Assembly (NCBI GenBank): GCA_026995955.1 | Contig: JALWNJ010000328.1 | Span: 1 to 11,525 of the forward strand | DNA from: Gammaproteobacteria bacterium | GTDB lineage: Bacteria; Pseudomonadota; Gammaproteobacteria; J044 | Length of the DNA: 11,525 nt | Reading direction: 5' to 3' | In this document: in pieces, positions 4,889 through 7,636 of the stretch | Position numbering within the stretch: position 1 is the stretch's first letter | Layout: each line of letters begins with the position of its first letter | The notes under the pieces: model-generated | The model's input: only the letters and a program-made list of their open reading frames with translations | Databases searched by the model: none | Told to the model about the DNA's origin: nothing | Program-made: the position numbers and the translations under genes

Positions 4889-5422
4889 TTACGCTGACTC
4901 ATACCGCTTGACGCTGTCGAGGATCTCCTGGCGCGCCGCATCGAGGCCCGCCCATCCTTCGACCTTCACCCACTTGCCGGGTTCCAGCGCCTTGTACTGC
5001 TCGAAGAAGTGCTCGATCTGGCGCAGCAGGTCCTGCGGCAGGTCCTCGATGGTCTCGATGCCGGCATAGGCCGCCAGGATCTTGGCCGTGGGCACGGCGA
5101 CGATCTTGGCATCGACACCGGATTCGTCGGTCATCTTCAGCATGCCCAGCGGGCGGCTCGGCACCACCGCGCCCACCATCAGCGGCACTGGGGTCACCAC
5201 CAGTACGTCCACCGGATCACCGTCCTCGGACAGGGTGTGCGGCACGAACCCGTAGTTCGCCGGATAGAACATGGCCGAGTTGACGAAACGGTCGACGAAC
5301 ATGGCCCCGGTGTCCTTGTCCATCTCGTACTTCACCACCGGCGCCGAATGGGCGGGGATCTCGATGATGACATTGACCTCGTCGGGCACCTGCTTGCCCG
5401 CGCTGAGCTTCTCCAGATTCAT
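4889..5422 (-). CDS. ppa: Soluble inorganic pyrophosphatase, family I
   Basis: Seen: 177 residues, matching E. coli Ppa (176). The ATG at 5422 has GGAG about 7 bases upstream; the frame stays open further upstream but that part is not related to the family. Active-site residues are in place: Glu21, Lys31, Glu33, Arg45, Tyr57, the signature DGDPVDV with Asp67, Asp69 and Asp72, then Asp99, Glu100, Asp104, Lys106, Tyr143 and Lys144. Known role: a cytosolic, Mg-dependent hexamer that hydrolyses PPi to phosphate and so pulls biosynthetic reactions forward. Context: a TATAAT box lies 37-42 bases upstream, so it probably has its own promoter. mrdA follows on the same strand after a short spacer with a hairpin, so read-through into the elongation genes is plausible. 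Confidence 0.97.
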
Positions 5423-5519: not shown

Positions 5520-5813
5520 CTACTGGATGTACTCCATCTGCTCGCGCACCAGGGCGTGGAATTCGGGGGAGACGCGCGACTGGTCCACCACATCGACCCG
5601 GAACGGGAGATCGGATTCCTCGAAGGCGTCCTTGAGCCGGAACAGGGTCTCGAGCGGCAGGGGCTCCTCCCCCAGCACCAGCAGATCGAGATCGGAGTGC
5701 GGCCGTGCCCCGCCTCGCACCCGCGATCCGAAGGCGGCCACCCGCCGGTCGGGCACCCAGCGCCGCAGTATCTCGCGCACCTGCTCGAGCTGAGGCTCGG
5801 GCAGGTCAATCAT
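5520..5813 (-). CDS. MNT-type minimal nucleotidyltransferase, probable antitoxin
   Basis: Seen: 97 residues from an ATG at 5813. The nucleotidyltransferase core is intact: [19 protein letters not shown] with Gly29-Ser30, Asp41 and Asp43, and a third carboxylate at Asp74 in FRVDVVD. Known for the family (HI0073 and MntA): small transferases encoded beside a HEPN protein; in characterised MntA/HepT pairs the MNT protein adds AMP to a tyrosine of the HEPN toxin and silences it. Context: its start lies inside the end of the HEPN gene, with an 8-base overlap (5806-5813), so the two are translationally coupled, toxin gene first. The stop at 5520 is followed by the ppa promoter region. Toxin-antitoxin activity is inferred; some HI0073/HI0074 pairs have only been called a nucleotidyltransferase and its substrate-binding subunit. 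Confidence 0.9.
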
Positions 5814-6225
5814 TGCGCGCCTCCAGGGCCTCGAGCAGGCGGTGGGCATCGCGGGCAAAGGCATCCGCCAGCAAGGCGATCTCACGCGCGACCGTCTGGT
5901 TGTAGGTGTGGGAAGTGAGATTGCGGGCCTGATGGTAGCCCATCCAGGTCTCGACATCGTCGATCAGCCCATGCTCTGCGGCCAGTCGAAAGAGGTGGCG
6001 CCGGGACACCCCTTCGACCTCCGACGGACCCAGGTTGTGGGCCAGCCAGCGACGGATGAACTTCCAGGCCAGTTCGTAGCTGAACTCGAAGTTCTGCACC
6101 ACACCGGCCTCGATGGCGCGCCGTGCGGCCTCGGGCAGGCCGGAGAGAAAATCCCGGTCATGATAGAGGGCAAGGACTTCGTCCAGGGAATTCAGCGCCT
6201 TGCGAAACGACCCCAGATCGAGCAT
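5806..6225 (-). CDS. HEPN-domain protein, HI0074-like, probable toxin of the MNT pair
   Basis: Seen: 139 residues, mostly helical, from an ATG at 6225 with GGGGA 8 bases upstream; a GTG at 6240 in the same frame adds five residues but lacks a good ribosome site. The family stretch [18 protein letters not shown] lies at 44-61. The HEPN motif is RNLTSHTY, Arg101-x4-His106-x-Tyr108. Known: in HEPN RNases the Arg and His cleave RNA, and in HepT the Tyr of RX4HXY is the residue adenylylated by MntA. All three are present, so the protein may be an active RNase under MNT control. It also matches the older description 'nucleotidyltransferase substrate-binding protein' (HI0074). Context: first gene of a two-gene unit, divergent from adk. 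The RNA target is not predictable from the sequence. Confidence 0.9.
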
Positions 6226-6257
6226 GTGCCACTTCCCCACAGATTGGCAGGGTCAAA

Positions 6258-6392: not shown

Positions 6393-7586
6393 ATGAGACT
6401 GGTACTACTCGGTGCGCCGGGTTCCGGCAAGGGCACGCAGGCCAAGCGGCTGGTCAAGCGTTATGGCATTCCACAGATCTCCACCGGCGACCTGCTGCGC
6501 GAGGCAGTGGCCGCCGGCACCGAGCTGGGCCGCGCGGCCAAGCAGTTCATGGATGCCGGACAGCTGGTGCCGGACGAGGTCGTGCTGGGCATGATCCGCG
6601 AACGCCTGAGCCAGCCCGACACCGCCAGGGGCTTCATCCTCGACGGCTTTCCGCGCAATGTCTCCCAGGCCGAGGCCCTGGACCGGATGCTGGAGGAGAT
6701 GAAACAGCCGCTGGACCTGGCCATCCTCATCGACACCGACTACGACGTGCTGATGCAGCGCCTCACCGGCCGCCTGACCTGCGAGAACTGCGGCGCGGTG
6801 TTCAACATCTACACCAATCCGCCCAGGCAGGATCGCATCTGCGACTTCTGCGGCGGCAGGCTGCACCACCGCGCCGACGACAACGAGGAGACCATCTCCA
6901 ACCGGCTCAGGGTGTACGACCAGCAGACCCGCCCGGTGATCGCCTACTACGAGATGGAATGCAAGCTGGCGCGCATCGACGGCGAGGGCGAGATCGACAC
7001 CATCTTCCAGCGCATCGTCGATGCCATCGAACAGCGCCTGAAGCGCGCGACGGCTTCCTCGGACGCCATCGGCCAGGGCGCGGCAGCGCCCGGTGCCGAA
7101 ACCGAAGCGCAAGCGAAAGACGCCACGCAGAAGGCAACGGCAAGGAAGGTCACGAAGAAAAAGACCTCCGCCAAAAGGGCCGGCAAGGCGACCACGGGCA
7201 AGAAGGCCGTCAAGGGCGTGGTGAAGAAGAAAGTGGCTCCGGCCAGCAAGGCGGTGAAGAAGGCGACCAAAAAGGCCGTCAAGAAGGCCGCCGGCAAAAA
7301 GGCGGCGGGGAAGGCGGTGCGCAAGAAGGCCGTGCGTCGTGCCGTGCCGTCGCTGGAGCAGGTGCTGCGCGTCGTGGAACAGGCCGTCGCCCGCGAGATC
7401 CGGCAGATGGAGCGCCAGCTCGAACAGGCGGCAAAGGAAACGGCGCGGCTGCTGGCCCGCGTCGCCCGCGCCGAGGCGCAGGGCGAGAAGCGGGTGAGCC
7501 GGGCCGAGGAGCGCGTGCGCCGGATCGAGGATCGCATCCGCAAGCTCACCGGCAAGAACCCGCCGGGGCGCCCGCGCAAGCGCTGA
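6393..7586 (+). CDS. adk: Adenylate kinase fused to a histone H1-like, coiled-coil and AT-hook tail
   Basis: Seen: 397 residues from an ATG at 6393 behind AGGGGGAG. Residues 1-217 form a full adenylate kinase: P-loop GAPGSGKGT (7-15), Arg36, DGFPR with Arg88, and a lid with Cys130, Cys133, Cys150 and Cys153 (Cys4 zinc type). Known role: ATP + AMP to 2 ADP in the cytosol. Normal length is about 214, so some 180 residues are extra. Residues 241-318 hold 26 Lys and 5 Arg with Ala, Thr, Gly and Val, like AlgP or bacterial H1-like proteins. Residues 319-385 read as a charged coiled coil, and the end PPGRPRKR resembles an AT-hook. There is no stop or frame change between the parts. Inference: the tail binds nucleic acid or another polyanion and oligomerises. 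A rival view is that the tail only aids solubility or localisation. The kinase call is firm; tail function is open. Confidence 0.95.
   Translation: MRLVLLGAPGSGKGTQAKRLVKRYGIPQISTGDLLREAVAAGTELGRAAKQFMDAGQLVPDEVVLGMIRERLSQPDTARGFILDGFPRNVSQAEALDRMLEEMKQPLDLAILIDTDYDVLMQRLTGRLTCENCGAVFNIYTNPPRQDRICDFCGGRLHHRADDNEETISNRLRVYDQQTRPVIAYYEMECKLARIDGEGEIDTIFQRIVDAIEQRLKRATASSDAIGQGAAAPGAETEAQAKDATQKATARKVTKKKTSAKRAGKATTGKKAVKGVVKKKVAPASKAVKKATKKAVKKAAGKKAAGKAVRKKAVRRAVPSLEQVLRVVEQAVAREIRQMERQLEQAAKETARLLARVARAEAQGEKRVSRAEERVRRIEDRIRKLTGKNPPGRPRKR
7113..7346 (+). repeat. Degenerate Lys/Ala codon repeat inside the adk tail
   Basis: Seen: purine-rich, irregular repetition of AAGAAGGC-like units encoding KKA, KKAV and GKKA steps; for example GGCCGTCAAG occurs near 7206 and again near 7273. 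The units are not exact tandems. Such low-complexity coding DNA can change length by slippage or recombination, as described for the KPAA repeats of Pseudomonas algP; instability here is inference. Confidence 0.6.
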
Positions 7587-7614: not shown

Positions 7615-7636
7615 CGGGGCCCGCATGCGGGCCCCG
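7615..7636. terminator. Palindromic hairpin between convergent genes, probable bidirectional terminator
   Basis: Seen: a perfect palindrome with 10-base arms (7615-7624 and 7627-7636) and AT at the centre, folding as a 9-bp all-GC stem with a CATG loop on either strand. It lies 28 bases after the adk stop and 6 bases after the stop of the convergent acidic-protein gene. Neither side has a clear T-run, so termination may be partial or may be helped by Rho. Confidence 0.55.

Follow-up and report, generated by a model that had tools for sequence, protein, structure and literature searches.

Why should an adenylate kinase (Adk), a textbook soluble enzyme that is taken to move freely through the cytoplasm, continue into a long basic extension? 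The question is raised by one open frame in the window, by which we mean the whole 11,525-nucleotide stretch of gammaproteobacterial DNA analysed here (contig JALWNJ010000328.1). On the forward strand, 397 uninterrupted codons lead from an ATG at 6393 to a TGA at 7584-7586 and encode both an Adk core and a tail (Table 1). Known long-form Adks end at about 214-226 residues, whereas the window protein has 180 more, and these are basic.

Table 1. Features of the window adk gene and its upstream neighbours.
Feature	Position	Strand	Basis
Soluble inorganic pyrophosphatase (ppa), conserved divergent neighbour	4889..5422	-	PF00719; NF002317 271 bits, cut-off 200
Nucleotidyltransferase pair between ppa and adk	5520-6240	-	profile matches
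Adk core with Cys4-type lid, residues 1-217	6393..7043	+	NF001380, PF00406, PF05191
Lys/Ala-rich disordered stretch, residues 218-316 (26 K, 6 R)	7044..7340	+	composition, pLDDT
Predicted long helices, residues 321-385, possible coiled coil	7353..7547	+	AlphaFold, heptad register
C-terminal end including PPGRPRKR, degenerate AT-hook-like motif	7548..7583	+	kept in P0001-P0004, absent from P0005

By its P-loop, NMP-binding and lid domains, the window protein (P0001) is a bacterial Adk, with catalysis predicted from sequence. Residues 1-214 score 306.5 bits against NF001380 (cut-off 251), and PF00406 and the lid domain PF05191 both lie above their cut-offs. In an alignment of 27 Adk rows, the P-loop, the segment T31-G-D-L-L-R36 and the four lid cysteines (C130, C133, C150 and C153) are invariant. 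The whole core and lid resemble the bacterial long-form Cys-lid Adks (NF001380, TIGR01351), of which 5g3y and 5g3z are the nearest solved chains; in the AlphaFold model, the 10-residue pLDDT means of the core lie between 80 and 96. The core has a pI of 5.1 and a net charge of -6. A further Adk model, NF010381/PRK13808 (335 positions), describes a different type without the Cys lid, against which P0001 scores 228.6 bits versus a cut-off of 426. The fused protein is the sole Adk match in the window genome, which is 86% complete, and is apparently the only Adk of the cell. In G023 and G024, both 100% complete, a tailed Adk is the sole match at E ≤ 1e-20 and should therefore be the housekeeping enzyme.

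The tail (residues 215-397) has a pI of 11.7 and a net charge of +40. The first-pass annotation of this DNA had counted 26 Lys and 5 Arg in 78 residues, and residues 239-316 contain exactly these numbers. Residues 227-250 and 252-315 are modelled by AlphaFold with pLDDT below 50, and helices are predicted at 321-363 and 365-385, with 10-residue block means of 69-91. In this helical end, a single heptad register places Leu, Ile, Val or Met at 10 of 21 a/d positions; register and helices together fit a possible coiled coil, with putative pairing. The comparison with H1- and AlgP-like tails holds, in that the window tail is, by composition and pLDDT, a long basic segment that is disordered and rich in Lys and Ala. 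AlgP and PhaF likewise have long, disordered tails rich in Lys, Ala and Pro, but these sit on helical, non-enzymatic domains, whereas the window tail is attached to an Adk. Homology of the window protein to phasins or AlgP was rejected, as Pfam returns no phasin family for P0001 at E ≤ 1. The AT-hook once seen at the C terminus fared less well: PPGRPRKR, with its GRP, is present and is kept in P0001-P0004, but the motif lacks the first Arg of the RGRP core, is absent from P0005 of a sister species, and brings no AT-hook family in Pfam at E ≤ 1, so that we do not assign an AT-hook.

The joining of an Adk to a tail of about 180 residues in one frame, as first annotated, is borne out by the intact frame (6393-7586) and by relatives. 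The annotation had allowed that no relative might keep the fusion; the recurrence search that it proposed found it in the same genus (G001, 74% identity) and in the same family (G002, 57%). As a protein query, the tail alone gave four matches at E ≤ 1e-3 among 7,992 scored candidates, all of them Adk fusions of 383-404 residues, with 93, 80, 69 and 66% identity over 100, 67, 92 and 50% of the tail. The fourth, P0005, in all likelihood represents the G001 protein, whose length it shares, and hence offers no independent support beside it. In a scan of genome contigs, 15 loci were found, of which L055 (G002) aligned over residues 1-390 and the other 14 within 1-227 only. GC3 is 0.88 in the tail versus 0.90 in the core, and omega relative to G001 (Nei-Gojobori counts) is 0.49 versus 0.16. 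By these measures the tail is coding-like, under weaker constraint than the core.

The impression that the tail is a local oddity does not survive a class-level search. We searched 370 Gammaproteobacteria genomes with P0001, plus 56 relatives, fetched the neighbourhoods of the best matches and kept one best Adk per locus, which yielded 139 P0001-like rows. With a tail defined as at least 60 residues containing at least 12 Lys, 91 of these loci are tailed and 48 are untailed. The tailed loci represent 91 genomes and 40 family codes; 90 of these genomes belong to the 370 searched, so that, judged from the best matches, at least 90 of the 370 have a tailed Adk. Setting aside 13 tailed rows whose ends are open or which contain masked stretches leaves 78 intact tails; these span 88-316 residues (median 188.5), consist of 34.5% Lys and 23.7% Ala with almost no aromatic residues, and carry net charges of +24 to +113 (median +63).

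Among database proteins of about 267 residues or longer, at least 7,977 match the core of P0006 at E ≤ 1e-20 (7,977 of 8,000 scored); 119 of the best 120 matches contain Adk domains and are 317-555 residues long, and all eight of the 119 that were read are Lys-tailed. The first of the best 120 is P0007, a eukaryotic protein of 750 residues with several Adk-type domains. In a phylum survey of 299 genomes with P0006, none of the matches listed, apart from the window genome, extended past query residue 230 without a stop; this survey favours the gamma group, and the tail of G401 (see below) surfaced only with NF010381. A genome search with the tail alone matched 4 of 11 genomes, yet all 11 carry a tailed Adk; because composition correction hides such tails, this search says little about the number of other tailed proteins. 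No description of a Lys-rich Adk tail was found in the open-access literature. Already known are H1-like tails, the Adk core family and one tailed Adk inside an NCBIfam model; what is apparently undescribed in that literature is that gammaproteobacterial Adks of this kind bear long polycationic tails and have a conserved gene neighbourhood.

A FastTree phylogeny of 190 cores shows how unevenly the tails are distributed. The P0001-like rows do not separate cleanly from the rest, since other Adk types nest beside untailed members, and 'P0001-like group' is thus only a working name. Two untailed members, G214 and G109, both without PPi neighbours, group with the other Adk types. Tail presence requires at least eight changes on this tree. 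The window genus and family are placed among the untailed neighbours G139, G315 and G238 (support 85), and because of this placement their tail may be either a separate gain or the survivor of losses. Two or three Adks coexist in several genomes. Among 12 further Adk loci from nine multi-Adk genomes, nine encode another untailed Cys-lid type and two an untailed form whose lid is E. coli-like; the twelfth, L229 (G012), encodes a divergent gammaproteobacterial Adk that is extended by about 300 Lys-rich residues, and has PFK and PPase matches nearby.

Basic extensions also occur outside the Lys-rich definition and outside the Cys-lid type. The P0001-like proteins of L199 (G212), L200 (G296) and L201 (G106) fail the Lys criterion but have short, Arg-rich basic ends. 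The NF010381 cut-off was exceeded in 1 of 12 genomes tested, G401, so that this Adk type, too, has a tailed member; its short-lid Adk (L233), of alphaproteobacterial type, bears its own K/A-rich tail of roughly 85-90 residues. Given the Arg-rich ends at three loci and the tails on a different Adk type, positive charge rather than sequence seems to be the feature that is kept.

The pyrophosphate enzymes encoded around adk had gone unremarked in the first-pass annotation. The window gene fits what we call the PPi-locus working group (a divergent PPase or PPi-PFK neighbour) through its opposite-strand ppa, and PPase is the only pyrophosphate enzyme that the window locus keeps. The pair between ppa and adk consists of an MntA-like nucleotidyltransferase (41.9 bits, below the cut-off of 60) and an HI0074-family substrate-binding subunit (79.3 bits, cut-off 55.8). 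Across 34 regions and the window, opposite-strand neighbours include PFK at 26 loci, H+-PPase at 24 and soluble PPase at 23, the window among them; the one PFK that was profiled is of the PPi-dependent kind (NF010675, 654.5 bits, cut-off 273). Counting as within reach an opposite-strand PFK centred at most 2.6 kb away, an opposite-strand PPase at most 1.7 kb away, or an H+-PPase or PPase at most 6 kb away, a PPi enzyme, mostly divergent, lies near 83 of the 86 tailed loci that could be assessed and near 39 of the 45 such untailed loci; in the remaining 8 of the 139, the upstream sequence was too short for assessment.

For comparison, the same scan was applied to 50 control loci that encode other Adks, with shorter flanks of about 1.5-3 kb. 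One of them is L229, with its PFK and PPase matches. Among the other 49, PFK was matched at 1 of 11 loci in one set (L020-L030, ten of which have an E. coli-like lid), and no PPi enzyme was matched at any of three loci in another (L136-L138) or at any of 11 second copies. All 24 loci from outside the class (L112-L135) have an H+-PPase match nearby, and the Adks that they encode lack a tail, the cores measuring about 213 residues; the linkage between Adk and PPi enzymes is therefore wider than the group and does not need the tail. The raw counts with and without PFK are 64 and 22 for tailed and 11 and 34 for untailed loci, with 8 not assessable. On the tree, tail and PPi-PFK yield two independent pairs on supported branches and no trend. 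That the tail tracks PPi-PFK is unsupported, and relatedness explains the raw association as far as this test goes.

A PPi-based energy economy has been proposed for methanotrophs and sulfur oxidisers. The enzymes of the PPi-PFK/H+-PPase/PPase cluster of methanotrophs and sulfur-oxidising symbionts are the same as those beside most of these adk genes, and this shared locus suggests a place for Adk in such an economy. In the Solemya velum symbiont, PPi-PFK is accompanied by a co-encoded H+-PPase, with a PPase gene immediately upstream of that for PPi-PFK; the words 'adenylate kinase' do not occur in the text of that paper (PMC4287430). For the window organism, the case for a full PPi economy is weakened by the lack of an H+-PPase match in its genome (G000), as in G001, and by the location of its PFK on another contig.

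What might the tail do? Reactions that convert ATP to AMP and PPi leave these two by-products, and for AlgP and PhaF a role of the H1-like tail as a polyanion tether has been reported or proposed. At a probability of roughly 0.47, a little short of even odds, we favour a PPi-locus housekeeping Adk that would be held electrostatically on polyanions (nucleoid, RNA or polyphosphate) by its polycationic tail. The core would act as a normal Adk and the flexible tail would be sticky for polyanions; in the window genus, the helical, possibly coiled-coil end may in addition let molecules pair. At the polyanion, Adk would remove AMP while the neighbouring PPases remove PPi. That Adk might sit on a polyanion had been proposed in the first-pass annotation and is, judged from sequence, a reasonable reading. 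In its favour are the net charge of all 78 intact tails, their scarcity of aromatics and the predicted disorder, the recurrence of tails, at 91 of the 139 loci and also in another type of Adk, and the PPi enzymes near 83 of 86 assessable tailed loci. Parallels from other systems lend further support: the H1-like tail of AlgP is needed for the spacing of polyphosphate granules and AlgP fragments bind DNA (PMC9239181), and a review states that overproduction of E. coli PPK1 enhanced Adk and polyP:AMP phosphotransferase activities (PMC3163519). By analogy with AlgP, nucleoid plus polyphosphate would be the first choice for the bound polyanion.

Several results weaken the proposed electrostatic tether. 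A tail is missing from 48 of the 139 relatives, PPi neighbours are just as common where there is no tail (39 of 45), and the raw association between tail and PPi-PFK loses its support when relatedness is taken into account. In the window genome itself, the absence of an H+-PPase match (shared with G001) and the placing of PFK on another contig count against it, as do the only ppk match, which is partial (31 positions), and the omega of 0.49 in the tail. The narrower proposal that many Gammaproteobacteria tether a PPi-locus housekeeping Adk through an H1-like tail to nucleoid-associated polyphosphate is unlikely as it stands; if true, removal of AMP and PPi would be concentrated at one intracellular polyanion phase, possibly together with recharging of AMP to ADP and ATP from polyphosphate with the help of polyphosphate kinases. 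More generally, if many Gammaproteobacteria anchor Adk to DNA, RNA or polyphosphate, the adenylate energy charge could differ from place to place in those cells, and truncation of the tail would provide a direct genetic handle on the anchoring.

Among other explanations, a nearly neutral low-complexity expansion, in which repeat slippage behind a tolerant C terminus does little harm, is unlikely. It would account for the repetitive composition, the spread of lengths from 88 to 316 residues, the higher omega in the tail than in the core (0.49 versus 0.16) and the eight or more gains or losses on the tree; however, every one of the 78 intact tails has a net charge of at least +24, the same kind of tail is found on other Adk types, tails occur in 40 family codes and omega in the tail is still below 1. 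It is quite unlikely that the tail has acidic partners or anionic membrane lipids as its targets, in place of nucleic acid or polyphosphate, and would thereby bring Adk to PPase, H+-PPase or PPi-PFK for the joint handling of AMP and PPi. The strongly basic tail and the conserved gene neighbourhood speak for this, but that neighbourhood is equally present in relatives that lack a tail (39 of 45), and the 24 outside-class Adks encoded near an H+-PPase do without a tail altogether. Regulation of the enzyme or its assembly, through autoinhibition or through oligomerization via the helical end, with polyanion binding being incidental, is more doubtful again: a helical end is present in the window genus and, with differing sequence, in G125, G305 and G225, but a filter for acidic ends retained just 5 of the 78 intact tailed rows, although it missed the helix-like ends of G002 and G371. 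An assembly join or frameshift, for which no evidence was found, is hardly credible and was rejected as the source of the fusion, which recurs in further assemblies, both within the genus and family and across 39 more family codes, and whose tail has a GC3 of 0.88.

Two minor observations concern the surroundings of the gene and the wider use of such extensions. A scan for promoters and terminators gave nothing useful for adk; a perfect 20-base GC-rich palindrome at 7616-7635, 30 bases past the adk stop, was not reported by the terminator scan. In G036, a DksA protein (L248:1087-1689, minus strand; PF21157 and PF01258 over cut-off) is extended at its N terminus by about 65 residues, Lys/Ala-rich and H1-like, and a similar protein is encoded in G219 (L246).
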